Source: an uncultured Christensenellaceae bacterium (GTDB lineage: Bacteria > Bacillota > Clostridia > Christensenellales > UBA3700). From it: a stretch of 55,209 nucleotides of DNA. The stretch's first letter is position 1. Every line of letters starts with the position of its first letter. The stretch covers positions 1-55,209 of the forward strand of contig CALWKR010000020.1 in NCBI GenBank assembly GCA_944381315.1, in the 5' to 3' direction. Position numbers and translations under genes: made by a program. Of this stretch, positions 36,734 to 52,791 are shown piece after piece. Below the pieces are notes generated by a model. That model saw only the letters and a list, made by a program, of their open reading frames with translations, searched no databases and had not been told where the DNA came from.

Positions 36734-36745
36734 ATCCCACTTTTG

Positions 36746-36776
36746 CAAAAAAACGGGGCAGGTCGCCCTGCCCCGT
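36746..36776 (-). terminator. Main terminator of the uronate operon
   Basis: A perfect 10-bp stem ACGGGGCAGG (36753-36762 with 36767-36776) with a four-base loop and seven T on the minus strand, 12 bases past the last stop codon. Confidence 0.9.
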
Positions 36777-36787
36777 CTCTCGATCCG

Positions 36788-38098
36788 TCAAAGCGTGGGT
36801 ACGGATACCGCGCCGCCGTCCTCGCCGTAGGCGATGTCGATGACGATGTGCATGCTGTCAAAGACGTCCGCTTTGAGCACAAGCTTTTGGTTGACCGCGT
36901 TCTCCTCGACATAATAAGGCATGATGCGCTCGACGTAATAGTCGATCTGATCCAGCCTGCTGTGCTTGTTGTTGTAGTCGTAGGTATAGCGCGCGGTGGT
37001 CATTGCGCCGATGTTGTCCCAGACATAGGAGATGTCCTCGTCAAAGTTGCTCCAATACTTGTTGCCCGACTCGATGTTCTCCTCAAGATTGATCCTCAGA
37101 GCCTCGTCGAAGTATGTCTCGATCCCGACCTGCCACTCTGCGACCGACTCTTTGAGACTGTCGAGATATTGCGGGATCGTCTGTTCGATCGCCGTCGTCC
37201 AGCCGGCGTCCGACGTGGAAGCAGGCACTTCCGGCACCGTCTCGAAGCCGATCACGGGCGCGTTCTCGGGCATGGCGTAAACCGATCTGTACTGCGCCTG
37301 CATGACATGGGTATAGATCTTGTTGCCGTTGGAGAAGCCGACGCAGTCTTCGGACAGGAAGGTGCCGACGTGCACGCCGTATTCTTCGAGCAGAGTGAGC
37401 CCGTCCTCGATCGTCTCGAACACGACGGGATCGCCGCCGTTGACGGAAGTCTTGGTCACTCCGTCCTCGCTCGCGACGACATAGACGATGCTGTTGTCTA
37501 TCGCCGCCTTGATCGTGTCGTATCTGTACTTGTCGCTCTGCGATTCTGCCGCCTTGGTCTGCAACTCTTCGAGTTTCGCTGCCCCGTCCTCGCCTATGCA
37601 ATCGGTGAAGTCGTCATAGAAGTTCTCCCAGATCTCGGGATAGACGGTCAGCTTGAAGTAGAAGTTGTCCGAGCCGTTCTGCGCGTACTGAACATACGAA
37701 TATTGGTCGTACCACGCATTGGTCTCTCTGCCGAGATCGGCGAGGGCTTGCTGTCTGTCGCTCTTGGTGCCGAACAGGTCGTCCAAGAAGTTGCTGTCCT
37801 CGTCGGCGAGCTCGTCGCTGAGAGCGTTGTACATCTTTTCGTATCGATCCCAACCCTTGTCGGACGAAGTGCCGCGCTCGATCGCCGCGTTGAAGTGTCT
37901 CTCGACGGCGAACTCTGTCGTGAAGGACGCCTGCTGCAAGTTGGCGAGAATGGACTCGTACTTGCTCTCGAAATCCTTCATATCGTCCTCGATGGACTGA
38001 TAGTACTCTTCTTCGCTCTGCGAGCAGCCGACGAACACGGTCGCAAGCAGGCATATGACGGCAATGATCGCCGTGAGGATAACGTATCTCTTTTTCAT
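36788..38098 (-). CDS. Surface lipoprotein of unknown function, end of uronate operon
   Basis: 436 residues. The lipoprotein signal ends in FVGC (Cys25). The mature part is acidic and helix-rich at first ([19 protein letters not shown]), then mixed, with many aromatic residues in the last 150 ([17 protein letters not shown]). No domain is recognised. The ATG lies three bases after the symporter stop, with GAGGAG overlapping that stop, so the two are translated together. As an exposed lipoprotein cotranscribed with a sugar symporter it may bind or present a uronic-acid glycan; this is inference. Confidence 0.82.
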
Positions 38099-38101
38099 AG
38101 C

Positions 38102-39703
38102 TCACTCCTCCCCGTCAAAGTGCACCGTCTCGGCGGCGACCGCCTCTTTGAATTCGACGACGTCTTTGCCGTCGATGACGACTTTGCCGTCCTCGGTGAC
38201 GGGAGCTTCGGCGCCCTGCTCGGCAGCCTTCTTGGCTTCGTACTCCGCCTTTCTCTTGTGCGCGAGCCTGACTTCGATCTCAGCCATCTTCTTGCCCGAG
38301 AGGTTGTAGAACAGCATCGGGATGATGGACACGAGGTTGGTGATGGCAGGTATGATCGTGAAGATCATGAAGATGCCCATCTTGGTGAACTCGGTCTGCG
38401 CCGGCGTATGGTCGTTGAGGAAGCCGAGCGGCTGCGAGAACAGGAAGAACGCGAGCAGCCAGGACAGGAAGTAGTCCTTGAATCCCGACGAGACCTTGCT
38501 GCGCAAGCTCATCAGCGAGAACGTGATGCCCTCGAGTCTCTCGCCCGTCTTGTCTTCCCAATAGTCGAGCGTATCGGTCGCCATGAGGTGCGGCACGACG
38601 TTGAGCACGCCGACTGGCAGCATTGCGAAGAACATCAGCACCGCGACGAGTATGAAGTCGGTGCCGCCCAGCAGATATATGATGAAGATGAGCGCCAGCG
38701 CCGCTGAATGCCAAACCGTAGCCAAGATGAACAGCCGCTTGGAGTCCATCTTGCGTTTCAGCCGCGGAGCGAACAGCATGCCTATCATCGACGCGATCGC
38801 GCTCGGGAGCGCAAACGCTATCTGCAGCGAGCCGTTGCTGTATATGTATGCGACGACGTACATGATCGCCGCGCTGACGAGGTTGCGGAAGAACGTCAGC
38901 AAATTGGACAAGATCAGCAGCAGGAAGGGCTTGTTCTTGAACATATACTTGAATCCTTCCAACAAGCTCGGCGTGGTCTCGGTAGGTTCGCATCTCTCCT
39001 TGACGCGGATGCCGCCGAGCACCATGAACAGAGGTCCGAGCACGCCGATGATGATCGCCGTGATCATATAGGTATTGGTGTAGTCGTCGTTGCTGAGCAG
39101 CAAGCCGAGCGAGATGAGCACGAGCGCGGACTGCTCGCCTATCGATCCCAGCACACGGCTGACCGAGATCAGCTTGGATCTCTCGTCCATATTGGGCGAC
39201 GCGACTGCCGGGATGCCGTCCAGAGGCACGCCGACGATGGTACCGGTGATGTCATAGAGGATATATGTGACGTACATCCACGCGATCTTGCCGCCGGAAG
39301 AGAATCCGGTGACCGGCATGAACATCAAGATCGTAACTATCGCCCACGGCACCGCGCCGATGACGAGGTAGGGGCGCATCTTACCCCAGCGCGTACGGGT
39401 CTTGTCGACGATCATGCCCATGACGGGGTCGTTGAGGCCGTCGAAGATCTTGGTGATCAGGAACATCGTGCCAACATCCGTTGCATTTATGCCCACGCAC
39501 GCTGTGTAGAAGAACAACAGGTAGCCCTGAACAAGACCGGTGACCGCGCTGCTTGCGAAACGCGCGAGCGCGAACAGGATGTAATCCTTCTTGGACAGGA
39601 ACTTTTCGTTGATCAGCTTGCTGTCTTCGGCGGCATTGTTGTCCGCGCCGCCGTCAGGAGCGAGCTGAGCCAACTCTTGGTTGGTGTCGATCGTATTTTC
39701 CAA
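38102..39703 (-). CDS. GPH-family (MelB-like) sugar:cation symporter
   Basis: 533 residues with about 12 membrane helices. Family marks: FDGLNDPVMGMIVDKTRTRWGKMRPYL near 85-112 (the cation-site aspartates and the RWGK-RP loop of glycoside-pentoside-hexuronide carriers), and TDTLDYWEDKTGERLEG in the second half. A long charged C-terminal tail of about 70 residues is extra. It probably brings uronates or uronide disaccharides into the cell. The start is TTG at 39703, set by GGGAGG eight bases upstream; an out-of-frame ATG lies between them and is too close to the ribosome site. Confidence 0.92.
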   Translation of the reverse strand: MENTIDTNQELAQLAPDGGADNNAAEDSKLINEKFLSKKDYILFALARFASSAVTGLVQGYLLFFYTACVGINATDVGTMFLITKIFDGLNDPVMGMIVDKTRTRWGKMRPYLVIGAVPWAIVTILMFMPVTGFSSGGKIAWMYVTYILYDITGTIVGVPLDGIPAVASPNMDERSKLISVSRVLGSIGEQSALVLISLGLLLSNDDYTNTYMITAIIIGVLGPLFMVLGGIRVKERCEPTETTPSLLEGFKYMFKNKPFLLLILSNLLTFFRNLVSAAIMYVVAYIYSNGSLQIAFALPSAIASMIGMLFAPRLKRKMDSKRLFILATVWHSAALALIFIIYLLGGTDFILVAVLMFFAMLPVGVLNVVPHLMATDTLDYWEDKTGERLEGITFSLMSLRSKVSSGFKDYFLSWLLAFFLFSQPLGFLNDHTPAQTEFTKMGIFMIFTIIPAITNLVSIIPMLFYNLSGKKMAEIEVRLAHKRKAEYEAKKAAEQGAEAPVTEDGKVVIDGKDVVEFKEAVAAETVHFDGEE

Positions 39704-39755
39704 TTCATAACCTCCCGATTATCACTTTTGTGATATCTCTATTTGGTGACTTGCG

Positions 39756-41702
39756 TCACTTTGTCCTTTGGGTGAGCTGCTTGTCGAAGAACTTGCCGTC
39801 CGCATAGCTCATTACGAACGCGCCCGTACTGCTCCAAGCCTGCAACAGACTGCCCTGCTTGTGCAGCGGAGAGAAGAACTCCACCGGAGTGTAGTTGCCC
39901 TTCTCGAAGTTGTATTCGAACCAGCGCGTCAGCGGATAGACATAGTCCATGCCGTGCATCAGCTTTGCGTACGCATAGACGCAGGACAGATAGGGCCAGT
40001 CTCCGCCGTTGTGATAGTAGTACGGCAGCGAGGACTTCTGAACGATGTCCGTCGCGCGCTTGTAGAAAGGATAGACGCTCAGCGTGCCGAAGTCGCCTGC
40101 GATCTGCTCGCCGTTCTTGTCCGACTCCAACCACTTCTCCATGGCCGAGAGCACCGATACGGCGCGCTTGTCGTCGCACAGTCCGAACAAAATGACCGGC
40201 ACCGTGTCAATCGACAGGTTGTCCTCGACGAAGTCTGCGTCCTTGTAGTTGACGAACCACCCCTTGGCGTCGTCCCAGAGCAAGGCGTTGATGGACTCCT
40301 TGACTTTGCGATATTTGGCATACCACGAGTCCCCCGACGCGCCGACGACGTCGCACATCTCCGCCATCGCGAACAGCGCGCGCGCATAGAGAGCTTCGTC
40401 GTAGGTGACATAGCCGCAGCGGAACACGTTGTCGCACCAATCGCGGCGGTTGAACTCTCCGCTCTTGACGAGCAAGCCGCTCGCGTCCGTCTCTTCTCCG
40501 AGCCTGTCGAGGACGAGCCGCGCGGCGTCCAAGACGGTGCCGCAGTCGCACTGCTCGCTCAATATCGACTTGTCGCCCGTGTGGCGCAGATAGTCATAGA
40601 TCATTATTACAAAGAAGGACGGCGAATCGTAGTGGTTGCCCCAATAGTTGCGGAAGTTGAACTTGACCGCAGACGGACACTCGCCCTTCTTGTTGATGCC
40701 GCACGCGAGAGTGACGATCTCGTTGCGGACGAGGTCGGGCCTGACGGGCAGCACCGACAGCACCGTCCAATAGGCGTCGCGGTAGTACGTCCTTGCCGGG
40801 AACTGATAGACTATGCCGGCGAGGAAGCCCTTGAACTTGCCCAGCTCCTTGTAGTTGGACAGCGAGCAATTGAGCAGCGAGCGGTAGTAAGCGTCCGCAA
40901 ATTCCTGCCCCTTGACCTCGGCGACCTTGCCTCCGTCCGGGCACGCGAGCGAATCGACGTATGCGTCGGCGTCCGCGAGCGCGCGGTCAAAGGAGTCGAA
41001 CGCGTCGTCCACGCTGCTGAAAGTATAGTCGTTGCGCGTCCCGGCGCTGACGACATAGCGCATCTTCTTCACTTCGCCGGCATTGAGTCGCGCGCCGTAG
41101 GCGAATTGATTGAAGAATCCTCTCTCATGTTCGAGCGCAACGGCCTTTTCGCCTATCGCGAAGTCTATGTAGAAATCGCCGAGCACGTCGCCGTGCAGAC
41201 GATAGTGCGAGCCGACTTGCGTCAAGCCGTTCTTCTTGCTCTTGACAAATCCGGCAAGCAGCGTCGCGATCGTCTTGGGGCTAAGTCTGTTGGCGAGCAG
41301 CTGCTCGACATAGGAGCTGTAATTCACGCCATAATTGACCGTGTCCGAAAACTCGATCGCCTGCTTTGCCGCGACCTGCGTCTGCACGAAGATCGCATTG
41401 GTGCCCGAGTCGAGGAAGAGCGTGATCTCGATGTCGCACTTGGGGTGAGCGATGCGCACGACCTGCTTTTTGCCGACCATCGTGACCGTCTTGGGCTCGG
41501 AATAATCGAGCGGCACTCCGTCCACCGAGTAGACGGAATAGAAGTTGCTGAACACGGAAAACTTGTTCATCACCGCATACTTGGAGACGGCGCCTCTGCC
41601 GTCGAACTGCGCGGTGATGCGATTGTTGCTGACGTCGTATTCCGCGATGTCGGCGAGGACTCCCTCGACTACCATCGCGCCGCCCTTGAAGTACTTTTTC
41701 AT
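39756..41702 (-). CDS. Six-hairpin glycosidase superfamily enzyme
   Basis: 648 residues, no signal peptide, so cytoplasmic. An N-terminal beta-sandwich (about 1-230) precedes an (alpha/alpha)6 barrel (about 260-648) with FPARTYYRDAYWTVLSVLPV, the RDxYW segment seen in debranching-type and related six-hairpin hydrolases, plus GEFNRRDWCDNVFRCGY, ENLSIDTVPVILFG-like and YYYHNGGDWPYLS segments. The exact GH family is not clear. The ATG overlaps the stop of the upstream oxidoreductase (ATGA), and a 52-base gap precedes the symporter gene. In this operon it may remove a neutral sugar from imported uronic-acid oligosaccharides. Confidence 0.82.
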   Translation of the reverse strand: MKKYFKGGAMVVEGVLADIAEYDVSNNRITAQFDGRGAVSKYAVMNKFSVFSNFYSVYSVDGVPLDYSEPKTVTMVGKKQVVRIAHPKCDIEITLFLDSGTNAIFVQTQVAAKQAIEFSDTVNYGVNYSSYVEQLLANRLSPKTIATLLAGFVKSKKNGLTQVGSHYRLHGDVLGDFYIDFAIGEKAVALEHERGFFNQFAYGARLNAGEVKKMRYVVSAGTRNDYTFSSVDDAFDSFDRALADADAYVDSLACPDGGKVAEVKGQEFADAYYRSLLNCSLSNYKELGKFKGFLAGIVYQFPARTYYRDAYWTVLSVLPVRPDLVRNEIVTLACGINKKGECPSAVKFNFRNYWGNHYDSPSFFVIMIYDYLRHTGDKSILSEQCDCGTVLDAARLVLDRLGEETDASGLLVKSGEFNRRDWCDNVFRCGYVTYDEALYARALFAMAEMCDVVGASGDSWYAKYRKVKESINALLWDDAKGWFVNYKDADFVEDNLSIDTVPVILFGLCDDKRAVSVLSAMEKWLESDKNGEQIAGDFGTLSVYPFYKRATDIVQKSSLPYYYHNGGDWPYLSCVYAYAKLMHGMDYVYPLTRWFEYNFEKGNYTPVEFFSPLHKQGSLLQAWSSTGAFVMSYADGKFFDKQLTQRTK

Positions 41703-42871
41703 GCCTGCTTGACTCCGCCCTGTTTCTCTTCTTCTATCCTCTGCTCGAGACCTGCGATGAACGCGTCCTCGTCGATCGGATAGACGACTTGCTTGCCCGT
41801 CCAGCTCGAGAGATGGATGGCGTTGCTGAACGTCAGTCCGTTGAGTCCGTCCGCATACGGCGCGATCAGCTTGCTCTCTTTGCCGAGCACGACGAGAGAG
41901 AAGTTGCGGATGACGTTGATGTGCTGCTGCTCTATCGCTCCCTTGATCATGTCGATCAAGTTGAGCTTGTACTTGTATGTCTTGTTGGGGATCTTGCCCA
42001 TAAAGACCTTGTTGGTGGCGCTGAATTGAGGTTCGGGCATACTGTTCTCGACAAAGGTGAGCTTCATCGTGATGTCGCTGCCCCCCTCAATGATCATCTT
42101 GCCGCCGTCGCCGCTGATCTCGAGACGGTTGGTGCCGGGCGCGTCGTGGGTGGATGTGATGAACACTCCCTCCGCGCCGCCTTCGAACTCGCAGACCGCG
42201 GTCACGTCGTTCTCGACATTGATCTTGCGCCCGACGGTCTTTGCGACGCTCCACACCTTGGTGATGGGCTTGCCTGCCAACCATGTGAACAGATCGAGCT
42301 GATGCGGATCTTGATTGATCAGCACGCCGCCGCCTTCGCCCGCCCAAGTGCCGCGCCAGCCGCCTTGGTCGTAGTACGCCTGCGGTCTGTACCAATTGGT
42401 GATGATCCAGACTATGCGTTTGAGATTGCCGAGCCTGCCGGAATCGATGATCTCTTTGGCCTTGACATACACCTTGTTGGTGCGTTGATTGTAGAGCAAT
42501 CCGAATTTGAGCTCGGGCTTGGTCTTGCCGTGTTCCGCCGCCTCGCGCACCGCCTTGGTATAGACGCCTGCCGGCTTGTCGCACAGCACATGCTTGCCTG
42601 CGTCGAGAGCCTCGATCGCGATGCCGGGATGCGCATAGTGCGGAGTGTCGATGATGATCGCGTCGACGTCCTTGTCTGCAAGCAGCTGCTTGTAGTCGTC
42701 AAAGACTTTGACCCCTGCGAGGTTGCTCTTCGCCCACTGTCTGCGATCTTCCTTGATGTCGCAGACGGCGGCGAGAACGCCGTTTTTGTCCATGCCCTTG
42801 AAGAGCCTCTTGGCATAGTTGCTTCCCTGCTTGCCTATGCCGATGATCCCGTACCTGACCTTGTCCATCAT
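41699..42871 (-). CDS. Gfo/Idh/MocA-family oxidoreductase (copy A)
   Basis: 390 residues from the ATG at 42871 (overlapping the upstream stop as ATGA; a second ATG follows at once). The N-terminal Rossmann fold has YGIIGIGKQGSNYAKR. CDKPAG near 100 is the conserved dehydrogenase lysine-proline motif. GEGGGVLINQDPHQLDL holds the family's catalytic-region histidine. It is closely related to copy B at 43827-44978: both contain YNQRTN, then WYRP or WYRS, WRxxWxGEGGG and LINQ-x-x-HQLDL, so the two look like a duplication flanking the TIM-barrel gene. It probably oxidises or reduces a sugar or glycoside hydroxyl with bound NAD(P). Confidence 0.93.
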   Translation of the reverse strand: MMDKVRYGIIGIGKQGSNYAKRLFKGMDKNGVLAAVCDIKEDRRQWAKSNLAGVKVFDDYKQLLADKDVDAIIIDTPHYAHPGIAIEALDAGKHVLCDKPAGVYTKAVREAAEHGKTKPELKFGLLYNQRTNKVYVKAKEIIDSGRLGNLKRIVWIITNWYRPQAYYDQGGWRGTWAGEGGGVLINQDPHQLDLFTWLAGKPITKVWSVAKTVGRKINVENDVTAVCEFEGGAEGVFITSTHDAPGTNRLEISGDGGKMIIEGGSDITMKLTFVENSMPEPQFSATNKVFMGKIPNKTYKYKLNLIDMIKGAIEQQHINVIRNFSLVVLGKESKLIAPYADGLNGLTFSNAIHLSSWTGKQVVYPIDEDAFIAGLEQRIEEEKQGGVKQA

Positions 42872-43815
42872 GCCTTCTCCTTTTCCGCTCTTTCGAGGAT
42901 ATCTTTGAGTCCGCGGTATTGCCATGTGAAGATGTCTTTGCGCGTGACTTTCTGCATCGGCTCGATGCCTTTCGCCTCGTCGATGCGTTTGAATATCTTG
43001 TTCCAATTGCCGACATAAGGCAGCATCCAAGTGAACCATCCGAAGATGTGGAACAGCACCTTGTGATCCGCATACTTGCCGGTGTGCGGCTCCAGCGTCA
43101 TGAAGCCGTCATAATTCCTGTTGACGACGAGATCGCGGATCATCTCGTTGTAGCCGCCAAGACCGAGCCCGATCGGGACCTCGACCTTCTCGGGCGAGCA
43201 GTCCTTGATATGATAATAGACGACGTAGTCTTTGAGCATTTGATACGCCATCGGCGCGTTGACTCCGCATTGGATGAAGTTGGACGCGTCATATGCGAGC
43301 TTGAATTGGGGATCGTTGATCTCGCTGTACAATTGCAAGCATCTCTCGGGAGTGTCGCCGTAGATGCGCTTCTCGTTCTCGTGCAAAAGGATGACGTCCT
43401 TGCCTTTGACTCTTTCGAGGAAGCCGCGCAACTTCTTGACGACTTCGGGGAAGTAGGCGTCATAGTCGCCGCCCTGCTTGACTCTGAACGAGAAGATGCG
43501 GATGTACTTGCAACCCATAATCTCGCAGATCTTGACCAGCTCGTCCAGCTTGGTGAGCTGAGCCTCATAGGCGGCGTTGTCGTGCAGCCCTATCTTGCCT
43601 ATCGGCGAACCTATCGACGAAAAGAGTATCCCCGCCTCGTCCAAGCGCGGCTTGATGTCCCTCGCGAACTCCTCCGCGGTGTAGTCGGCGATGTTCTTGC
43701 CGTCGACGACGCGCGGGCACAGATACTTCTCTCCGAACTCCTTGATCAGAGCGATCTGGTCGTCCAGCTTGGAGCTGACCTCATCGTAAAAACCCGATAT
43801 CTTTACCTGTGACAT
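42868..43815 (-). CDS. Xylose-isomerase-like TIM-barrel protein
   Basis: 315 residues. Segments such as KYIRIFSFRVKQG, VILLHENEKRIYGDTPE, FKLAYDASNFIQCG, YYHIKDCSPEKVEVPIG and GFMTLEPHTG contain the Glu/Asp/His/Glu metal ligands of the AP-endonuclease-2/sugar isomerase barrel. Relatives epimerise keto-sugars, dehydrate inosose, or cleave 3-keto-glycosides. It overlaps copy A by four bases and starts 11 bases after copy B ends. An isomerase/epimerase or lyase acting on the product of the adjacent oxidoreductases is the likely role. Confidence 0.9.
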   Translation of the reverse strand: MSQVKISGFYDEVSSKLDDQIALIKEFGEKYLCPRVVDGKNIADYTAEEFARDIKPRLDEAGILFSSIGSPIGKIGLHDNAAYEAQLTKLDELVKICEIMGCKYIRIFSFRVKQGGDYDAYFPEVVKKLRGFLERVKGKDVILLHENEKRIYGDTPERCLQLYSEINDPQFKLAYDASNFIQCGVNAPMAYQMLKDYVVYYHIKDCSPEKVEVPIGLGLGGYNEMIRDLVVNRNYDGFMTLEPHTGKYADHKVLFHIFGWFTWMLPYVGNWNKIFKRIDEAKGIEPMQKVTRKDIFTWQYRGLKDILERAEKEKA

Positions 43816-43826
43816 AATTCCTCCAC

Positions 43827-44978
43827 CTATTTGCTTATTCCGGCTTTGCCGTTCATTTCCTCTTTGATCTTGGCGGCGAGCGCGTCGGCATACGCCCCCT
43901 CGTCGACGGGCAAGCTCACCTTGCCTCCCGACCAATCCGAAAAGTTCATCGCATTGATCATCGACAGCGCGCCCATCCCCTCTTCGCCTCTCGCGACGAG
44001 CAGCGAGGGATCGTGCCTCTCCGCCGCGCGCACGAATGCGCGCAATACCTTGCATTGCTGCCCCATCCGCCAGTCGAACAGATAGTTGTCTATCCCGTAG
44101 AACTTGCGCACGGTGCGATATTTTTTGTCCTCTTTGTTGCCGTAATCGCGCTTGGAACGCGCGTTGATCTCGCTCTCGTCCATTTTGAGCAGCTTGGCGG
44201 TCAGCATGCCCCTCGTGACCGTCAGCAAACCCTTGGTGCCGGCTATCTCCAATCTGTTCACTCCCGGCAGCTCGTGCGTCGACGCGCGGAAAGAACAGTC
44301 AAAGCCGTCGTATCCGAACAGCGCCGTCACGTCGTTCTCGGTCGAGATGTGCCTGCCCACGGTCCTGCACTTGCAGGTGACTTCGGACGGCATGCCGAGG
44401 ATCCACTGCAACAAGTCGAGCTGATGCACGCATTGATTGATCAGCGTGCCGCCGCCCTCTCCCGACCAGCTCGCACGCCAGCCGTTCATGTCATAGTAGA
44501 ATTGCGAGCGGTACCAATCTGTGACCGTGAAGTCCGCGCGCACTATCTCGCCCAGCTGTCCGCTGCCGACGAGCGCCTTGGCTCGGGCATAGAGAGGATT
44601 GGTGCGTTGGTTGTAGACGATCCCGAAAATTACGTCCCCGTGTCGATGAGCGACGTCTATCAGCTGTCTCGCGCTCTGCGCCGTGACGGATATGGGCTTC
44701 TCCACGAGGGTGTGTACGCCTGCCTCTATCGCGTGCGAGCAGATCTCGACGTGCGAATAGTGCGGCGTCGCTACGACGACTGCGTCGGCGGCTCCCGAAT
44801 CTATCAATTCGCGATGATCGGCGAAGGTCTTGACTCCCCACTTGCTCTCGGCTTTGGCACGGACGGACGGATCGATGTCGCAGATCGCGGCAAGCTGCGC
44901 CCCGGGCACTGCTCCCGACGCGAGATTCGCCGCATGGCGCGACCCCATCCTTCCTGTTCCGATGACCGCAACTCTCAT
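43827..44978 (-). CDS. Gfo/Idh/MocA-family oxidoreductase (copy B)
   Basis: 383 residues. Nucleotide-binding start VAVIGTGRMGSRHAANL, EKPIS near 93, YNQRTNPLYARA, WYRSQFYYDMNGWRASW and GEGGGTLINQCVHQLDL. The related features of copy A occur in the same order, indicating common descent. Residues about 265-310 are a basic insert (RSKRDYGNKEDKKYRTVRK) not seen in copy A. It overlaps the stop of the GDPD-like gene by four bases. The sugar substrate cannot be read from the sequence. Confidence 0.93.
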   Translation of the reverse strand: MRVAVIGTGRMGSRHAANLASGAVPGAQLAAICDIDPSVRAKAESKWGVKTFADHRELIDSGAADAVVVATPHYSHVEICSHAIEAGVHTLVEKPISVTAQSARQLIDVAHRHGDVIFGIVYNQRTNPLYARAKALVGSGQLGEIVRADFTVTDWYRSQFYYDMNGWRASWSGEGGGTLINQCVHQLDLLQWILGMPSEVTCKCRTVGRHISTENDVTALFGYDGFDCSFRASTHELPGVNRLEIAGTKGLLTVTRGMLTAKLLKMDESEINARSKRDYGNKEDKKYRTVRKFYGIDNYLFDWRMGQQCKVLRAFVRAAERHDPSLLVARGEEGMGALSMINAMNFSDWSGGKVSLPVDEGAYADALAAKIKEEMNGKAGISK

Positions 44979-45628
44979 TGTTTTTCCTCTTCTTTTTGGC
45001 TCAACTCATATCTTATCGCGGACGCGACCACGGGCAGATTGGTCGTCACGTTGGCGACGCCCCAGCGCATGAATCGCGACAGCTGTCTGTACGAATCGAG
45101 CGTGAACACGGACAACTTCACTCCGTGATCGCGGCAAGCGGCGAGGAAGTCGTCTCTTGCCATATACTTGTTGACGTTGAGTCCTGCGAAGTGCGGATTG
45201 CCCGATTCTTCGAGCGCGCGCTTGATCGCAGGGACGTTCTTGGCGATGTACGGCAGACCCTTGATCTTGTTGAGCCAAGCGTCGCCGGCGGTCAGCACGT
45301 CGCTGTCCGTCAGTCTCACCGCGCCGGTGAAGATGAGATTCTCCTTCACACCGAGCTCTGTCGCGAGATCTATGACGTCGCGGACGAGTCCGCTCATCTT
45401 GAGGTCGCAGTTGATCTTGAGACCGCGCTGTTTGACGATCGCGAACGCCTCGGCGAGAGTGATCTTTTTGCGATACAGGAAGAGCGACGGCAAGTGGCTG
45501 AGATACAAGACGCCTCCGCGCTTGTATACGTCCACCTCGATCGCGTCGGCGTTGTAGGCGCTTATGTTCTCAAAGTACATACGCGAATTCCTGCCGGTGC
45601 CAAGTGCTCCTCCGTGTGCTGTGATCAT
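44975..45628 (-). CDS. Glycerophosphodiester-phosphodiesterase-like TIM-barrel protein
   Basis: 217 residues from the ATG at 45628, with GAGGAG about 12 bases upstream. ITAHGGALG, ADAIEVDVYKR, YLSHLPSL and INCDLK follow the order HRG ... E-x-D ... H-D ... N-x-E-x-K of the GDPD/PI-PLC barrel. The first and second histidines and the EVD pair are kept, but HRG reads HGG, the usual HD reads HLP and the ELK reads DLK. It is shorter than the usual 240-250. It may therefore use another phosphodiester or a non-phosphate substrate. It sits between two oxidoreductases, with a four-base overlap to copy B. Confidence 0.8.
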   Translation of the reverse strand: MITAHGGALGTGRNSRMYFENISAYNADAIEVDVYKRGGVLYLSHLPSLFLYRKKITLAEAFAIVKQRGLKINCDLKMSGLVRDVIDLATELGVKENLIFTGAVRLTDSDVLTAGDAWLNKIKGLPYIAKNVPAIKRALEESGNPHFAGLNVNKYMARDDFLAACRDHGVKLSVFTLDSYRQLSRFMRWGVANVTTNLPVVASAIRYELSQKEEEKQ

Positions 45629-45644
45629 GCTGTCGACGCTCTCC

Positions 45645-46922
45645 TCACTTTTGTATGTCCGGGATCTCGGACATCTCAACCTTTGCGCCGCCGCGGTGTC
45701 TGGACAGTTCCGCAGCGGTGACTATGCGGTGGCTCTCCACCGTATCCTCTATCCAAGTATATTGTCCGTTGGGATCGAGCTTGCCGCGCAGCAGATCCGC
45801 GGTGGCCTTGCTTATCCCCTCGTCGCCGCCGTAATGTCCCTTGATCACGGGGATGATGTTGACGACGATCTTCTTGGTGCGCTTGTCGAACAGCCTCAGC
45901 TCGATGACGCTGCCCCTGTCGTCGGCGATCAGCTCGCCCTTGGTGCCGCGGATCTCGGTGTGGCGATGGTCTTTTTCGTTGAACGCGTTGGCGGTCATCA
46001 CGATCTTGACGCCGTTCTCCATCTCCATATTGACCGTCTGGCAGTCGACGACGTCGTTGTCGCACGCAAAGACGCATCTCGACCACAGCTTGCCGCGCTC
46101 GCCGTTTTTGAGCGCGTCGATGACCGCGTCCTTCTTGGGACTGACGCTGAAAGCATACGTCCCCCACGGGAACTTGTGCGGTCTCAGCCCTCTGCCCACA
46201 TATTGATAGGTGCATTCATAGATGCACTCGTTGCGGTACTTGCAGTCAAAGCAGTTGTCCGCCGCACCCTGCGGCGCGTTGGCGGAATTGAAGAAGGACA
46301 GATCTCCGTACGACGACAGGCTCTTGCACTTGGCTCCGGCGAACCAATAGAGCAAGTCCATATCGTGACAGCACTTGGCGAGCAGCATCGGCGAAGTCTC
46401 CTCTTCGCGGCGCCAATTGCCTCTGACATAGCTGTGACAGAAGTGCCACCACGAGATATGCTCGTCATGCTTGATCAGCTTGATGTCGCCGAGCACGCCT
46501 TGATCGATCAGCTGCTTTATGCGGCGATAGTAGTTGGCATAGCGCAACACATGGCAGACAAGCACTTTTCTGCCGTGCTCGCGCGCATACTTCTCTATCT
46601 CCAAGCACTCCTCGATGTTGGGGCTGACCGGCTTTTCGAGCAACAGGTCGTAGCCGAGCGCGAGCGCCTTCATCGCGTGTCCGTAGTGGTCGCGGTCTTG
46701 AGTTGCGATGACCATGACGTCGGCGACTTTGCCTTGACCGAAAAACTTGTCCTCGTCGACGAAACACTTGTCGTCGGGGACGTGCCAAGCCGTCTTGACG
46801 TTGTCGATCTTGGCTTGATATTTGTCGCAGATCGAGACGATCTGCACGTCGGGGATCGCGTTGAGATGATTGCCGTAATTGCGGCCTCTCGACCCGAGCC
46901 CTATCACCGCGACCTTGTGCAT
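45645..46922 (-). CDS. Gfo/Idh/MocA-family oxidoreductase (copy C, cysteine-rich insert)
   Basis: 425 residues. VAVIGLGSRGRNYGNHL opens the Rossmann fold; EKPVSPN near 95 is the dehydrogenase motif; KCCHDMDLLYWFAG corresponds to the catalytic helix. It is distinct from copies A and B. A striking insert near 225-245 has four spaced cysteines (NCFDCKYRNECIYECTYQY), a possible metal-binding knuckle. The start lies one base after the SDR stop and its ribosome site is inside that gene. It may act on a different sugar position than A and B. Confidence 0.92.
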   Translation of the reverse strand: MHKVAVIGLGSRGRNYGNHLNAIPDVQIVSICDKYQAKIDNVKTAWHVPDDKCFVDEDKFFGQGKVADVMVIATQDRDHYGHAMKALALGYDLLLEKPVSPNIEECLEIEKYAREHGRKVLVCHVLRYANYYRRIKQLIDQGVLGDIKLIKHDEHISWWHFCHSYVRGNWRREEETSPMLLAKCCHDMDLLYWFAGAKCKSLSSYGDLSFFNSANAPQGAADNCFDCKYRNECIYECTYQYVGRGLRPHKFPWGTYAFSVSPKKDAVIDALKNGERGKLWSRCVFACDNDVVDCQTVNMEMENGVKIVMTANAFNEKDHRHTEIRGTKGELIADDRGSVIELRLFDKRTKKIVVNIIPVIKGHYGGDEGISKATADLLRGKLDPNGQYTWIEDTVESHRIVTAAELSRHRGGAKVEMSEIPDIQK

Positions 46923-46923
46923 A

Positions 46924-47757
46924 TCAAACCCCCGAATAGGCGGAGAAGCCTCCGTCGATCGGCACGACGATGCCCGTGACGAATCCCGCCTTGCTGTCGT
47001 CGGTGAGCCATGTCAGCGTGCCGAGGATCTCCTCGGGCTCTCCGAATCTGCCCATCGGAGTGCTCGCGATGATCTTGCGCGCTCTCGCGGTGGGCGCGCC
47101 GTCCTTGTCGAACAGCAAGACGTAATACTGCTTGGTGACAAAGAAGCCGGGCGCGATCGCGTTGACTCTGATCCCCTCTTTGGCAAAGTGAACGGCGAGC
47201 CACTCGGTGAAGTTGCTGACCGCCGCCTTTGCGCCGCTGTAAGCCGGGATGCGCGTGAGCGGACGGAAAGCGTTCATCGAAGAGACGTTGACGATGTTGC
47301 CGCCCCTGCCGACCATATCGGCGGCAAAGACCTGCGTGGTCAGGAAGGTGGCAAGGAAGTTGAGCTTGAACACGAAGTCCACGCCTCCCCCGTCGAGATC
47401 GAAAAAGCTCTTGACGTCGGGATCGTTCATGTCCTTGACGTCGAAGTAGTCGTTGGTCGTCGTCCCCTTGGGATTGTTGCCGCCGGCGCCGTTGATGAGG
47501 ATGTCGGTCAAGCCGAGATCCTTGTTGATCTGCGCCTTTGCCGCGATCATCGTCTCCTTTTCGAGACAATTGACGGCATATGCCTTGGCGATCCCGCCGT
47601 CCGCGACGATCTCGTCGGCGACCTTTTGCGCCGCGTCGAGATTGAGATCGAGCACGGCTACCTTTGCGCCGAGTTTCGCATACTCATTTGCCATCATGCT
47701 GCACAGGATGCCTCCTGCGCCGGTGATGACTGCGACCTTGTCCTTGTAGATATCCAT
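46924..47757 (-). CDS. uxuB: Short-chain dehydrogenase, D-fructuronate/mannonate oxidoreductase type
   Basis: 277 residues. Classical SDR: cofactor loop TGAGGILCS near the start, the NGAGG strand, catalytic Ser in NVSSMNA, and Tyr/Lys in AYSGAKAAV, ending VPIDGGFSAYSGV. The unusual loop GGNNPKGTTTNDYFDVKD matches the SDR-type D-mannonate oxidoreductases of Firmicutes (UxuB/YjmF-like), which replace the longer UxuB of E. coli. It would reduce D-fructuronate to D-mannonate, between UxaC and UxuA, whose genes lie immediately upstream. Confidence 0.88.
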   Translation of the reverse strand: MDIYKDKVAVITGAGGILCSMMANEYAKLGAKVAVLDLNLDAAQKVADEIVADGGIAKAYAVNCLEKETMIAAKAQINKDLGLTDILINGAGGNNPKGTTTNDYFDVKDMNDPDVKSFFDLDGGGVDFVFKLNFLATFLTTQVFAADMVGRGGNIVNVSSMNAFRPLTRIPAYSGAKAAVSNFTEWLAVHFAKEGIRVNAIAPGFFVTKQYYVLLFDKDGAPTARARKIIASTPMGRFGEPEEILGTLTWLTDDSKAGFVTGIVVPIDGGFSAYSGV

Positions 47758-47781
47758 TTTCTCCTCCCTGTGTATGTTATC

Positions 47782-48849
47782 TCACTTTATTGTCGGCACA
47801 TACTCGCCGCGCTGTTTGCCCACTGCTTCGATGATCCCGTCAAGATACATCGCGCCGAGCGCACGGTCGTACAGTCCGTATCCGCCTCTGCCCTCTTCGC
47901 CCCAGATCATGCGGCCGTGGTCGGGTCTGACATAGCCGTCGAACTTGGCGTCATAGAGAGCGTTGACGATCTGATACATGTCGAGGCTGCCTCTTTCGGA
48001 GACGTGTCCGCTCTCTTCGAAGCAGCGGTCGCCCGTGATCTTGACATTGCGCAGGTGGGCGAACGAGATGCGGTCGCCGCACATGCGGATCATATCGGGC
48101 AAGTTGTTGGCAGGATCGACTCCGAGCGATCCCGTGCAGAAAGTCACGCCGTTGAACGGAGTGTCCTCGATCGCGAACATGCGCTTGTAGCTCTCCGCGC
48201 CCGTGATGATGCGCGGCAAGCCGAAGATGCCCCACGGCGGATCGTCGGGATGGATCGCCATGCGCACGCCGTACTCCTCGGCGACGGGGATGACTTCGTG
48301 CAAGAACGTCGCGAAGTTGCTCCACAGCTTCTCTGCGTCGACGTCGGCATATCTGCCCAGCAATTCTTTGAGCCCGTCCTTGGTGTAGCTCTCGTCCCAG
48401 CCGGGGAGACTGAGCTCGCTCTTGACCGGATCGAGCGCGAGCACGGTGTCACGGTCGTATGCGAGCGCATGCGAGCCGTCGGGGAGCTGCTTGGAAAGGT
48501 CGCTGCGCAGCCAGTCGAATACGGGCATAAAGTTGTAGCAAATGCATCTGACGCCTGCGTTGCCGAGACGGCGCACGTTCTCCTTGTAATTGTCGATGAG
48601 CCTTGCGGCGTCGGGGCCGCCCAGCTTGATCTCTTCGTGGACGGGCACGCTCTCGACCACCTCGAACTCCAAGCCCTTCGCCTCGGCAAGGGTCTTGAGC
48701 CTGTTGATGCTCTCGTTGCTCCACACCTCGCCTACGGGGGTATCGTAGACGGCGGAGACGACGCCGGTCATGCACGGGATCTGTCTGATCTCGTCCAGCG
48801 TGATCCTGTCTTTTTCGCCATACCAGCGGAATGTCATCTTGAATGCCAT
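47782..48849 (-). CDS. uxuA: Mannonate dehydratase
   Basis: 355 residues, usual length. It dehydrates D-mannonate to 2-keto-3-deoxy-D-gluconate. Hallmarks: MTFRWYGEKDRITLDEIRQIP, ESVPVHEEIKLG, CYNFMPVFDWLR, RMAIHPDDPPW, FCTGSLGVDPANN and YVRPDHGRMIWGE, with the histidines and acids that bind the divalent metal. The ATG follows the uxaC stop without a gap. It is slightly shorter than the E. coli enzyme, as in other Firmicutes. Confidence 0.97.
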   Translation of the reverse strand: MAFKMTFRWYGEKDRITLDEIRQIPCMTGVVSAVYDTPVGEVWSNESINRLKTLAEAKGLEFEVVESVPVHEEIKLGGPDAARLIDNYKENVRRLGNAGVRCICYNFMPVFDWLRSDLSKQLPDGSHALAYDRDTVLALDPVKSELSLPGWDESYTKDGLKELLGRYADVDAEKLWSNFATFLHEVIPVAEEYGVRMAIHPDDPPWGIFGLPRIITGAESYKRMFAIEDTPFNGVTFCTGSLGVDPANNLPDMIRMCGDRISFAHLRNVKITGDRCFEESGHVSERGSLDMYQIVNALYDAKFDGYVRPDHGRMIWGEEGRGGYGLYDRALGAMYLDGIIEAVGKQRGEYVPTIK

Positions 48850-50229
48850 TTATCTCTCCTCCAAAAGGGCTTTTGCGTTGCCGTAACAGAGCGCGTATGC
48901 GACTTGCTTTGCGGCGTCCGTGCTGCCGTCCGCGTGATCGGCGAGCCAATTGCAGACGACTTGACGATAGTAGTCGTGTCGTGTATAGGACAAGAAACTG
49001 CGGCTGTCGGTCAGCATGCCGACGAGCGAGCAGATGTGTCCGAGCTCTCCGAGCGCGTCGAGCGTCTCGGTCATGCCGCGCTTGTGGTCGCAGAACCACC
49101 AGCTTATCCCGATGTGCACTCCCCTGAACGCGCCTGCAAGCGTGATCAGCGGATAATACGCGATCGGATTGAGCGAATAGATGACGGTCTCGGGAAGAGC
49201 GTGCGCGTCGTTCATCGCGTCGAGCATGCGCCTGACGCTCTCGACGGGAACGGGATCGGCGACACAGTCAAAGCCGCTGTCCGCGCCGAGCTCGCGGAAG
49301 CCCTGCGAGTCGCAATTGCGCGCAACGGACAGGTGCATCTGCATGACCATGCCGCGCGCCGCGTATTCTTTGGCGAGCGCGAGATAGAGCGCGCCTTTGT
49401 AGGCGTCGACGTCCTCCGCGCTCGGAGTCTGTCCCGAAACGAGCTGCGCATATATGCGCGCTGCGCGCTTGTCGTCGGCGATCGCGGACGGGAAGCCCTC
49501 CACTCCGACGTCCGAGAACTTGCATCCGTGCTCGACGAACGTATCCATGCGCGCCGCGACAGCCGCCTTGAACTCGTCCCATGTGTCCACGCTCATGCCT
49601 GCCGCCGCGCCGATCGCGCGAACGTAGTCGGCATATCCCGGCTTGTCTGCTCCGACGAGCTTGTCGGTGCGGAATGACGGCACGACTTTGACGTCGAGAT
49701 CTTTGTCTTCGGCAATGAGTCTGTGCCAATGCAGATCGTCGCACGGGTCGTCAGTCGTCGCGACATAGACGACGCCCGACATCTTCATGAGCTTGCGCGG
49801 CGAGAGTTTTTCTCTCGCGATGACGTCGTTGGCTTTTTGCCAAATGACGTCCGCGTTTTGGGCGTTGAGCTCCTCCGTTATCCCGAAGAAGAAGCCCAGC
49901 TCCGACTTGACCCAATCGCGCATGGGATTTCCGAGCGCGAGTCCGGTCGCTTTGGCGAACGCGCGGAACTTGTCCTTGATGTCCGCGTCGCCGGTGATGT
50001 ATTTTTCGTCTATGCCGAAGCCGCGCATCAGTCTCCATTTGTAATGATCCGCGGCGAGCCACATTTGCCCGATGTCGTCAAACGGCTTGTCCTCAAAGAT
50101 CTCCTTGGGCGAGAGATGGCAATGATAGTCTATGATCGGCAGCGACTGCACGCCGTCATAGAGCTCTCTCGCGAGCGCGTTCTTCAAAATGTCCGCCGTC
50201 TTACCTTTGAACTCTGCCACTTCCGTCAC
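48850..50229 (-). CDS. uxaC: Glucuronate isomerase
   Basis: 459 residues. It isomerises D-glucuronate to D-fructuronate (and galacturonate to tagaturonate). IIDYHCHLSPKEIFED carries the metal histidines; ATTDDPCDDLHWHR, MQMHLSVARNCD and DSRSFLSYTRHDYYR are family segments. The start codon is GTG at 50227-50229. It lies inside the kdgK gene, a 29-bp overlap, so translation is probably coupled by reinitiation. Context strongly supports glucuronate as the natural substrate. Confidence 0.96.
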   Translation of the reverse strand: MTEVAEFKGKTADILKNALARELYDGVQSLPIIDYHCHLSPKEIFEDKPFDDIGQMWLAADHYKWRLMRGFGIDEKYITGDADIKDKFRAFAKATGLALGNPMRDWVKSELGFFFGITEELNAQNADVIWQKANDVIAREKLSPRKLMKMSGVVYVATTDDPCDDLHWHRLIAEDKDLDVKVVPSFRTDKLVGADKPGYADYVRAIGAAAGMSVDTWDEFKAAVAARMDTFVEHGCKFSDVGVEGFPSAIADDKRAARIYAQLVSGQTPSAEDVDAYKGALYLALAKEYAARGMVMQMHLSVARNCDSQGFRELGADSGFDCVADPVPVESVRRMLDAMNDAHALPETVIYSLNPIAYYPLITLAGAFRGVHIGISWWFCDHKRGMTETLDALGELGHICSLVGMLTDSRSFLSYTRHDYYRQVVCNWLADHADGSTDAAKQVAYALCYGNAKALLEER

Positions 50230-51226
50230 CCTGCATGAGTTTGAGCACTTCTGCCTCGGTCACCGCGTTGAAGTCTCCCTCGATCGTATGTTTGAGGCAA
50301 GACGCCGCGACAGCGAATTCGAGCGATCTCGCCTCGTCCCAACCGTTGGACAGTCCGTGGATGAGGCCTGCTCCGAAGCTGTCTCCGCCGCCGACTCTGT
50401 CGACGATGTCGATCTCGTAGTGCTTGCTCGTCAGGACTCCGTGCCTCCCGACGAGGATCGCAGACCAACCGTTGGAGTCCGCATTGTGACTCTCGCGCAG
50501 CGTGAACGCGACAGCTTTGAGCGAAGGGAACTTGGCGAGCAGCTGCGCGCCTATCTCGGAATAGCCGTCCTTGGACAGCTTGCCCGAATCGATGGAACTG
50601 CCCTTGGCTTCGATGCCGAAGACGTCCTTGCAGTCCTCCTCGTTGCTTATCAAATATGTAACGCCGTCGAGCAGCTCCGTCATGACCTTGTTGGCTTTTT
50701 CGCGGCTCCACAGCTTTTTGCGGAAGTTGAGATCGCACGACACGTCGATGCCCTTGCTTCTCGCCTCTTTCATCAATTCGCCGATCATCTTTGCGGCGTT
50801 GTCCGAGATCGCGGGCGTGATGCCTGTCCAATGCAGCCACTTGGCGCCGTCCAGCACCTTGCGCGCGTCATAGTCGGCCTCCGAGATCTCGCTTATCGCG
50901 CTGTGCGCGCGGTCATATATGACTTGCGACGCGCGTTGCGAAAAGCCTTTTTCGCAAAAATATATGCCCATGCGCTCGCCGCCGCGGACGATCTTGTCCA
51001 CTCCGACGCCCCATCCTCGCAGCGTGTTTACGCAGGCGTCGGCAATGGGATTGTCGGGCAGCTTGGTGAAGAACGCCGCGTCGTCGCCGAATTGGGCGAG
51101 CGACACCGCCACGTTTGCCTCGCCGCCGCCGTAGACGGCTTCGTAACTGTCGGTCTGCACGATGCGCTTGTAGCCGGGCGGCTGCAACCTGAGCATGATC
51201 TCTCCTGCGGTGACTATCTTGCTCAT
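50201..51226 (-). CDS. kdgK: 2-keto-3-deoxygluconate kinase
   Basis: 341 residues, PfkB/ribokinase family. TAGEIMLRLQPPG starts the fold, YGGGEANVAVSLAQFG is the sugar-binding glycine segment, and RVGGGDSFGAGLIHGL holds the catalytic aspartate and anion hole. It phosphorylates 2-keto-3-deoxygluconate to KDPG. The ATG at 51226 overlaps the aldolase stop (ATGA), and the gene overlaps uxaC by 29 bp. Confidence 0.95.
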   Translation of the reverse strand: MSKIVTAGEIMLRLQPPGYKRIVQTDSYEAVYGGGEANVAVSLAQFGDDAAFFTKLPDNPIADACVNTLRGWGVGVDKIVRGGERMGIYFCEKGFSQRASQVIYDRAHSAISEISEADYDARKVLDGAKWLHWTGITPAISDNAAKMIGELMKEARSKGIDVSCDLNFRKKLWSREKANKVMTELLDGVTYLISNEEDCKDVFGIEAKGSSIDSGKLSKDGYSEIGAQLLAKFPSLKAVAFTLRESHNADSNGWSAILVGRHGVLTSKHYEIDIVDRVGGGDSFGAGLIHGLSNGWDEARSLEFAVAASCLKHTIEGDFNAVTEAEVLKLMQGDGSGRVQR

Positions 51227-51873
51227 CTCGCGCCTCCTCTGACTCTCTCTATCTCGGCGACGAGATCGCGCGCGGTCTGCTCGACCGCCGCATAGTCGCC
51301 CGTCTTGGCGCCTTTGGTCAAAAAGCTGCCTGCTCCGACGGCGCAGGCTCCCGCCTTGAACCAGTCGGCGACATTGGACAGATCGACTCCGCCCGTCGGC
51401 ATGATGTCGAGCTGCGGCAGAGGGCCTTTGAGGGCTTTGAGTCCCTTGGGGCCTGCGACATCGCCCGGGAAGAGCTTGACGAGATCCACTCCTGCCTCGA
51501 GCGCCGCGACCGCCTCGGTCGGGGTGAAGATCCCCGGCACGACGGCAACGGCATATCTGTTGCACAGCTTGATCGTATCTGTGTTGAGCGCGGGCGAGAA
51601 CACGAATTGCGCTCCCGCGAGTATCGCTGCTCTCGCCGTTTCGGGATCGAGCACGCTGCCTGCGCCGACAATGACGTCTTGGCAGTCGTACTTGGCGCAC
51701 AGCTCGGCGATGAGCTTGTCCGCCCCGGGCACGGTGAACGTGACTTCGATCAACTTGATCCCCCCTCTCACGCAAGCGTCGACGGACGCCAACGCCTTGT
51801 CATGGCTGTCACCGCGGATGACCGCGACGACGCCGCACCGTTTGATTGCTGCCAAAACCTGCTGTCTGTTCAT
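51223..51873 (-). CDS. eda: KDPG/KHG aldolase
   Basis: 216 residues, typical class I aldolase. It splits KDPG into pyruvate and glyceraldehyde-3-phosphate. VVAVIRGDS (phosphate loop start), EVTFTVPGA (catalytic Glu), FSPALNTDTIKLC and VKLFPGDVAGPKGLKALKG with the Schiff-base lysine in VKLFP are present, then MPTGGVDLSN. The ATG at 51873 follows GGAAGG. It is the first gene behind the operon promoter. Confidence 0.97.
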   Translation of the reverse strand: MNRQQVLAAIKRCGVVAVIRGDSHDKALASVDACVRGGIKLIEVTFTVPGADKLIAELCAKYDCQDVIVGAGSVLDPETARAAILAGAQFVFSPALNTDTIKLCNRYAVAVVPGIFTPTEAVAALEAGVDLVKLFPGDVAGPKGLKALKGPLPQLDIMPTGGVDLSNVADWFKAGACAVGAGSFLTKGAKTGDYAAVEQTARDLVAEIERVRGGAR

Positions 51874-51924: not shown

Positions 51925-51953
51925 ATTATAAAATAAACACACACGAATTTCAA
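51925..51953 (-). promoter_or_regulatory. SigA promoter of the 13-gene uronate operon
   Basis: TTGAAA (51948-51953), 17-bp spacer, TATAAT (51925-51930), about 50 bases before eda. The -35 is weak, as expected for an activator-dependent promoter. TTTCAA is repeated 14 bp away toward the divergent promoter, a possible regulator half-site pair. Confidence 0.78.
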
Positions 51954-51973
51954 GTATTTGATTTTCAAAATTA

Positions 51974-52002
51974 TGGACAAAACGGTTGAGTTCTGCTATA
52001 AT
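51974..52002 (+). promoter_or_regulatory. SigA promoter of the AraC-type regulator gene
   Basis: TGGACA (51974-51979), 17-bp spacer, TATAAT (51997-52002). It is back to back with the operon promoter, with only 20 bp between the two -35 boxes, so one bound regulator could control both. Confidence 0.76.
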
Positions 52003-52026
52003 CAAATCGAAAGGAGGTGCACCGTA

Positions 52027-52791
52027 ATGCCCGTGATCAACTATATCGGCAAAAATATGAAGACCTACAACGTCTCCAGCCACCAGCACGACTATTGGGA
52101 GATCATCTATTGTACGAACGGCGACGGCAAGATCGTTTTTGAAGACGAATCCGTCATCGAGTATACGCGCAACCAAATGGTCATCATCCCGCCGCACGCC
52201 GTACATTCCAACATTTCCAAGTCGGGATTCCGCAACATCTACCTCACCGTCGCCAATTGGACTCCGACGTTCAAGCGGCCCCAGATCGTCTCGGACAACC
52301 CTCAACGCGACATCTACAACGTGCTCAACCTCTGCTATCGCTACTTCAATTCCGAGACGGGCAACCAAGGCAACATCATCGTCTCGTTCACAGAGCTGAT
52401 CATCAACCTGCTCGCCGCTTTCGCCGGCACCAACAACTGCTCTCGCCACGTCGAGATCATTGCGTCCGCGATCGTCGAAAACTTCTCCGATCCCAACTTC
52501 TCCCTCGACGACGTCTATGCGAGCTTCCCTCTCAGCAAAGACTACATCCGCAGACAGTTCATCAAAGAAAAAGGCATCTCGCCGCTTCAATTCCTCAACA
52601 ACACTCGCATCGCCTTTGCCCAAAAACTGCTGCTCGGCAAGACCGTCAACAACTTCAAGATCTATGAGATCGCCGAGATGTGCGGCTTCTCCGACCAGCT
52701 CTACTTTTCGCGAGTGTTCAAAAAGATCACCGGCGTCAGCCCCAAAGAATATACGAGCATACCGAGAGCGGAGCATTACAATAGTATTTAG
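52027..52791 (+). CDS. AraC-family transcriptional regulator
   Basis: 254 residues from the ATG at 52027 behind AAAGGAGG. The N-terminal cupin-like sensor domain contains SHQHDYWEIIYCTNGDGKI and MVIIPPHAVHSN. The C-terminal 95 residues have two helix-turn-helix units: FSLDDVYASFPLSKDYIRRQFIKEKG and the signature IYEIAEMCGFSDQLYFSRVFKKITGVSPKEY. Such proteins usually activate sugar operons when a sugar binds the cupin domain. It is divergent from the uronate operon, with a shared 153-base promoter region, so it is the obvious candidate controller. Confidence 0.95.
   Translation: MPVINYIGKNMKTYNVSSHQHDYWEIIYCTNGDGKIVFEDESVIEYTRNQMVIIPPHAVHSNISKSGFRNIYLTVANWTPTFKRPQIVSDNPQRDIYNVLNLCYRYFNSETGNQGNIIVSFTELIINLLAAFAGTNNCSRHVEIIASAIVENFSDPNFSLDDVYASFPLSKDYIRRQFIKEKGISPLQFLNNTRIAFAQKLLLGKTVNNFKIYEIAEMCGFSDQLYFSRVFKKITGVSPKEYTSIPRAEHYNSI

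Follow-up and report, generated by a model that had tools for sequence, protein, structure and literature searches.

The 13-gene operon considered here lies on the minus strand, from position 51873 down to 36788, of contig CALWKR010000020.1 (assembly GCA_944381315.1) from an uncultured Christensenellaceae bacterium; the window is the whole stretch of DNA analysed, 55,209 nucleotides long, and belongs to a genome of 1.48 Mb that is 91% complete. The order is Eda, KdgK, UxaC, UxuA, an SDR-type oxidoreductase, GfoC, a GDPD-like protein, GfoB, the HENEK barrel, GfoA, an (alpha/alpha)6 protein, a GPH symporter and a lipoprotein (Table 1). Five of these genes provide the glucuronate pathway, and we argue that GfoA, GfoB and the barrel would probably supply it with glucuronate by a redox-based opening of glucuronides.

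Operon layout and the glucuronate pathway

A sequence-only reading of this DNA had proposed a single operon of thirteen minus-strand genes, and the analysis bears this out: successive gaps are -4, -29, 0, 24, 1, 16, -4, 11, -4, -4, 52 and 3 bases (range -29 to +52), and the order recurs in eight neighbourhoods of other genomes (L014-L021) as far as the fetched stretches reach. Since the order is repeated, the arrangement is not due to chance. Some 50 bases separate the end of the promoter-like site from the first start codon; as such sites show no excess region-wide (5 against a mean of 5.9 in shuffles), the call of an operon promoter rests on position. Terminator-like stems number 19 region-wide against 13.6 (standard deviation 4.0) in shuffles.

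Table 1. Features of the operon and its borders, in window coordinates
Feature	Position	Strand	Evidence
Divergent AraC-family regulator, upstream	51958..52791	+	Pfam HTH_18 60.5 bits, AraC_binding 27.5
Promoter-like site TTGAAA-17-TATAAT before Eda	51925..51953	-	11/12 consensus
Eda, KDPG (2-keto-3-deoxy-6-phosphogluconate) aldolase	51223..51873	-	NF005119 284.5 bits, cut-off 238
KdgK-type PfkB kinase	50201..51226	-	Pfam PfkB 110.9 bits
UxaC, glucuronate isomerase	48850..50229	-	NF002794 499 bits, cut-off 387
UxuA, mannonate dehydratase	47782..48849	-	TIGR00695 403 bits, cut-off 199.55
SDR, D-mannonate oxidoreductase (fructuronate reductase)	46924..47757	-	NF006132 406 bits, cut-off 281
GfoC, distant Gfo/Idh/MocA oxidoreductase, second inositol-linked module	45645..46922	-	Pfam; orthologues
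GDPD-like barrel protein, His-Gly for His-Arg	44975..45628	-	below Pfam cut-off; alignment to GDPD 5t91
GfoB, GfoA paralogue, proposed 3-keto-glucuronate reductase	43827..44978	-	8TDI match, E 5.6e-73
HENEK barrel, proposed eliminase and hydratase	42868..43815	-	alignment, conserved residues, model
GfoA, proposed glucuronide 3-dehydrogenase	41699..42871	-	8TDI match, E 6.9e-98
Beta-sandwich and (alpha/alpha)6 glycosidase- or phosphorylase-like protein, 648 residues	39756..41702	-	domain and fold matches
GPH-family cation symporter	38102..39703	-	TIGR00792 276 bits, cut-off 231
Lipoprotein, function unassigned	36788..38098	-	lipobox by eye; no Pfam match
Terminator-like stems after last gene	36768-36756, 36733-36714	-	stem search

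The five glucuronate-pathway genes claimed in the same reading are confirmed, four of them (UxaC, UxuA, the SDR-type mannonate oxidoreductase and Eda) above curated NCBIfam cut-offs. KdgK passes the Pfam cut-off and no NCBIfam equivalog cut-off (NF041332, 231 bits against 440); its match to the fusion model NF041633 (aldolase plus kinase) covers the kinase half and reaches 504.6 bits, under the whole-length cut-off of 700. The operon thus contains all five steps of the known UxaC/UxuB/UxuA/KdgK/Eda pathway, from which it differs in that the reductase is of the SDR type and the genes are joined to redox genes in one operon. Fructuronate was also considered as the direct product, in which case genomes lacking UxaC would be expected; this candidate was rejected, UxaC being found in 11 of 12 chosen genomes. 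The sole exception is G026, which is 88% complete, and the match in G074 is a fragment covering 37 profile positions.

GfoA and GfoB as relatives of a glucuronide dehydrogenase

Three Gfo/Idh/MocA oxidoreductases had been recognized in the operon; all three are present, but they are not alike, GfoA and GfoB being sisters and GfoC distant from both. The best solved match of GfoA and of GfoB alike is PDB entry 8TDI, 'P2B11 Glucuronide-3-dehydrogenase', which we take to belong to Nasseri et al. 2024, Nature, and the next best matches fall to E values of 6.3e-33 and 2e-30, respectively. Identity to 8TDI extends over nearly the whole length, amounting to 43% over 393 columns for GfoA and 38% over 397 for GfoB, as compared with 23% over 210 columns for GfoC and 20% over 315 for the genome's own IolG, and the motif GGGxLxNQxxHQLD is common to GfoA, GfoB and 8TDI. 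A tree was built from 182 sequences selected for their length and score. In it a close GfoA clade, a distant GfoA clade that includes 8TDI (support 0.993) and GfoB form one group (support 0.994), with low support (0.518) for any branching order among the three; GfoC falls far from this group. We therefore regard GfoB as a sister of the glucuronide dehydrogenases, and on grounds of homology we propose that GfoA is a glucuronide 3-dehydrogenase. Among the matches listed, which may exclude near-self records, the closest named genome by GfoA is that of Candidatus Ornithoclostridium faecavium (84% identity).

The genomic surroundings of GfoA were surveyed in the best 80 of at least 571 confirmed matches, some of which come from the same organisms as the genomes of the order discussed below (G numbers). 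They comprise a close clade (L054-L083, n = 30, at least 56% identity to the window's GfoA) and a distant clade (L084-L133, n = 50, 45-50%); 40 further neighbourhoods were picked by hand from the matches listed. Thresholds for the counts of linkage, UxaC co-occurrence, iol loci and iolG were set by us. In the close clade UxuA and the SDR gene each lie near GfoA in 26 of 30 loci, UxaC in 21 and a close GfoB in 18, and the HENEK barrel adjoins GfoA in 28. UxuA is near GfoA in only 4 of the 50 distant loci, and restricting the comparison to loci flanked by 5 kb or more on either side gives 20/22 for the close against 3/31 for the distant clade. Across 200 genomes of the order, UxaC occurs in 100, namely in 60 of the 61 with a GfoA relative (1e-40) and in 40 of the 139 without (Fisher 1.7e-22, a value that ignores common descent). 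The possibility, raised at the outset, that the block would prove unlinked to uronate genes elsewhere thus runs counter to both the 26 close-clade loci with UxuA and the genome-wide co-occurrence with UxaC.

The distant clade, which includes Paenibacillus, Cohnella and others, has a HENEK barrel, an HNH barrel, both or neither adjacent to GfoA. 8TDI, which resembles GfoA and GfoB in sequence, belongs to this clade, in which UxuA is rarely nearby and an HNH barrel frequently adjoins GfoA (21/50). Neither barrel adjoins in 21 of the 50 loci, where other cleaving enzymes may stand beside GfoA.

A proposed redox route for opening glucuronides

From the gene identities, homology, linkage and co-occurrence described above we infer the catalytic roles of GfoA, GfoB, GfoC, the barrel and the GDPD-like protein, and consider it probable that the operon opens an intracellular glucuronide by redox chemistry, with no ordinary glucuronidase, and feeds the product into the glucuronate pathway. 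The GPH symporter would import the glucuronide, GfoA would oxidize C3 of the glucuronosyl residue with NAD+, and the metal-dependent HENEK barrel would then remove the aglycone by beta-elimination and probably also hydrate the resulting 1,2-double bond. GfoB would reduce 3-keto-glucuronate to glucuronate, regenerating NAD+, after which UxaC, the SDR-type reductase, UxuA, KdgK and Eda would yield pyruvate and glyceraldehyde 3-phosphate. A second module, made up of GfoC and the GDPD-like protein, would probably act on the released partner. Accepted in this form, the earlier proposal of a redox opening feeding the glucuronate pathway is well supported for GfoA, GfoB and the barrel, in view of the homology to 8TDI, the linkage to UxuA and SDR genes and the co-occurrence with UxaC; GfoC and the GDPD-like protein, which had been included in it, would instead belong to the separate, inositol-linked module.

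The chemistry is already known in kind from the levoglucosan, C-glycoside and AtOGE operons; this variant is new. In the levoglucosan pathway LgdA-LgdB1-LgdB2-LgdC (PMC7676230), a dehydrogenase, two 'sugar phosphate isomerase' proteins and a Gfo reductase are likewise clustered and carry out the same succession of oxidation, elimination, hydration and reduction as proposed here. There two such proteins lie between the redox enzymes, here one, and the product there is glucose, as opposed to glucuronate together with a whole catabolic pathway. LgdC reduces 3-keto-glucose (PMC7676230), and by analogy GfoB would run the last step in the direction of reduction. The AtOGE/AtHYD operon of Agrobacterium and the gut C-glycoside eliminase PuCGE offer a second parallel, since they use metal-dependent barrels on 3-keto-glycosides, with His134 as the catalytic residue of AtOGE (PMC10628242). 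AtHYD is one of the fold matches of the HENEK barrel.

In the HENEK barrel, for which the predicted model has a mean pLDDT (predicted local distance difference test) of 95.6, a putative metal site consisting of Glu146, Asp176, His202 and Glu242 is kept entire in 38 of 38 HENEK barrels (set A3). The catalytic His of AtOGE and PuCGE, two residues after the first metal ligand, is absent; Glu148 stands in its place in all 38, and the HNH motif is found in 11 of 11 barrels of the F9 family. No second, AtOGE-type barrel was detected elsewhere in the window's genome at 1e-8 with one F9 query. A relative of the HENEK barrel was likewise encoded in none of 13 viral stretches matching a pattern.

Alternatively, no glycosidic bond would be broken: the barrel may be an isomerase or epimerase that acts with the redox genes to turn a rare uronate into glucuronate or fructuronate, for instance through oxidation at C3, epimerization and reduction. 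The absence of the AtOGE His weighs on this side, as do the nearest folds, which are isomerases and 3-epimerases (Art22, UlaE, tagatose 3-epimerases) and YcjR, a 3-keto-glucoside 4-epimerase; the Glu-Asp-His-Glu site is also that of those enzymes. However, the nearest solved relative of GfoA is named for glucuronides and not for free uronates, and the operon includes a glycosidase-like protein. Furthermore, genome G189 has at one locus (L026) GfoA, GfoB, KdgK, SDR, UxuA and UxaC together with an F9 barrel of the HNH, AtOGE-like type, its HENEK barrel lying elsewhere, as if either barrel could work with the same partner. We consider the conversion of a rare uronate unlikely.

It is also conceivable that the block serves inositol-type polyols, the Gfo proteins being inositol dehydrogenases, the barrel an IolE-like dehydratase and the uronate genes merely carried along. 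Against the iolG model TIGR04380 (cut-off 355 bits), GfoA scores 108, GfoB 116 and GfoC 74, so that none of the three is IolG by this measure, and the genome has a separate true IolG with 453 bits; on these grounds the role of inositol dehydrogenase was rejected for GfoA and GfoB. Moreover, the close GfoA clade tracks UxuA, SDR and UxaC, and none of the 120 GfoA loci L014-L133 contains iolD, iolA, iolE or iolG above 300, 300, 150 and 250 bits, respectively, which makes this explanation very improbable.

Least probable of all is ordinary hydrolysis, in which the 648-residue (alpha/alpha)6 protein would be a glucuronidase of unusual type and only side products would be left to the Gfo proteins and the barrel. 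The protein has the fold of inverting glycosidases and phosphorylases, and 12 of the 30 close-clade loci have it near GfoA, but it was not seen in the other 18 (some cut by contig ends), while the barrel stands beside GfoA in 28. What had been called a glycosidase indeed has a glycosidase- or phosphorylase-like fold, but no family can be assigned. It matches GDE_C (26.6 bits) and Trehalase (23.2 bits) over partial length, both just above the cut-off of 21, and assignment to a glycoside hydrolase family failed, as many families tie by fold and the model is poor (pLDDT 67.8).

The GfoC module and the inositol link

GfoC and the GDPD-like protein form a separable second module that is tied to inositol genes. 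Orthologues of GfoC (at least 66% identity) occur in 13 of the 200 genomes, the window's own included; with distant relatives (33-45% identity) the number rises to 54 at 1e-50. In G189 the module is found apart from GfoA, at locus L170, where iolD, an iolA-type dehydrogenase and iolG are followed by a PfkB-type kinase on the other strand and then by GfoC, a PHP hydrolase of the CehA/McbA type, the GDPD-like protein, the HENEK barrel, an (alpha/alpha)6 protein, a GPH symporter and a lipoprotein. A GfoC relative (42-44%) likewise occurs together with PHP, GDPD-like and GPH genes in G063 and G013 (L171, L181), and G096 (L186) has an iol operon close by, on the far side of the kinase and AraC gene that precede Eda; there iolG and iolE score over their cut-offs, iolD and iolA being called by similarity to the genes of G189.

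A true iolG, over the model cut-off, was found in 28 of the 200 genomes. Its frequency is 11 of 13 where a GfoC orthologue is present and 17 of 187 where none is (Fisher 3.6e-9, again ignoring descent). It adjoins the GfoC module in two genomes. Within the window's family iolG is present in 9 of 11 genomes with the module and in neither of the two without (G036, G143). Two genomes of family f3, G096 and G189, carry the GfoC orthologue together with iolG; another six, which have GfoA and lack a GfoC orthologue (G034, G078, G113, G128, G154, G178), are without iolG. These counts indicate that the inositol link tracks GfoC more than GfoA. A PfkB-type kinase shows a similar distribution (13/13 against 14/187); in G109 its neighbour is a GfoC-like gene, and in G010 it overlaps a PHP gene about 6 kb from iolG. 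In the window's family, by contrast, the kinase and GfoC are on different contigs in every one of the 11 genomes. In the 5 of those 11 that were examined the kinase is next to a large protein; a Pfam search with one of these proteins gave no match. At L204:2330-7458 (the window's own genome, C55) a protein of 1407 residues with no Pfam match precedes the kinase, and similar pairs occur in L205-L208.

Several observations speak against the link to inositol or weaken it. G005 and G059 have the GfoC module and no iolG; in the nine iolG-bearing genomes of the window's family iolG is on another contig or far away; and the 120 GfoA loci lack iol genes at the scores given above, although the stretch L019 stops short of its genome's iol genes. 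In addition, close-clade GfoA genomes without a GfoC orthologue have iolG in 5 of 15 cases, all in family f24, compared with 1 of 33 other GfoA genomes. A single shared gain of neighbouring genes in a few lineages could also yield the association. In eight of the 120 loci there are matches scoring 176-193 bits to another two genes from iol neighbourhoods, by eye class II aldolases.

In relatives the PHP gene separates GfoC from the GDPD-like gene (L015:5746-6837, L016:6413-7378, L017:13248-14735; the CehA/McbA type was tested on the L016 and L017 copies). Of the eight neighbourhoods L014-L021, five contain it; the window does not, its GfoC and GDPD-like genes being 16 bases apart. Some copies have an extra N-terminal part that by eye resembles a separate gene (F29) of other relatives. 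The GDPD-like gene, which is also present in L014 and L020 by tblastn, had been read as a GDPD-like barrel; the gene is there, but its product stays under the Pfam cut-off (GDPD, 18.3 bits against 23.6), and in the alignment with 5t91 and in the relatives printed His-Gly replaces the His-Arg motif. An Arg is found further on in the family, at Gly-Arg-Asn, and this shift may reflect a swapped or new activity.

Tentatively, and with considerable doubt, the substrate may be envisaged as a glucuronosyl-inositol, of which the glucuronic acid (GlcA) and inositol halves would go to the glucuronate and iol pathways; in some relatives the iolDEAG genes and the GfoC module are linked. The (alpha/alpha)6 protein would trim an outer sugar, GfoA, the barrel and GfoB would cut GlcA from inositol, the GDPD-like protein (with the PHP hydrolase in relatives) would handle the phosphate and GfoC would act on the inositol side. 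The single HENEK barrel would in that case combine eliminase and hydratase activities, a new type of bifunctional enzyme lacking the usual His. Man-GlcA-inositol-phosphate has been observed as a soluble fragment, and ions from a plant mutant are attributed to GlcA-inositol and its phosphate (PMC11496612). A molecule of this type would account together for the glycosidase-like and phosphodiesterase-like proteins, the glucuronate pathway and the inositol link.

As for the remaining genes, the GPH symporter scores 186.5 bits with the glucuronide-transporter equivalog, short of its cut-off of 528, and slightly more with YagG (208.9) and MelB (197.1). Genes similar to that of the lipoprotein occupy the same place in relatives, some of them matching weakly (22-24 bits in L016 and L019). 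Directly after the operon, at 34020-36791 (-), lies a gene that by eye encodes a heavy-metal P-type ATPase, as also in L014, L015, L017 and L018, where the gene order beyond the operon is partly conserved; the family (F13) was assigned by Pfam on the L015 copy, and a DAHP synthase gene (F18) is near the ATPase in three relatives. Further away, at 7302-11672 (-), a protein of 1456 residues with Listeria-Bacteroides repeat and MBG domains is probably a surface protein; for its neighbours at 4899-6584 and 1864-4902 Pfam gives weak matches or none.

What becomes of many drugs, hormones and plant compounds depends on glucuronide cleavage by gut bacteria, an activity usually sought by way of beta-glucuronidase genes. 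If the proposed route is correct, searches of that sort overlook the enzymes with which one branch of uncultured gut Clostridia opens glucuronides; enzymes of this kind perhaps act on alpha as well as beta linkages. Bacterial breakdown of glycosyl inositol phosphorylceramides is named in no title among the open-access matches listed, which does not prove its absence from the literature. Should the link to inositol also prove true, the operon and its GfoC module would represent a route for consuming the head groups of plant sphingolipids.

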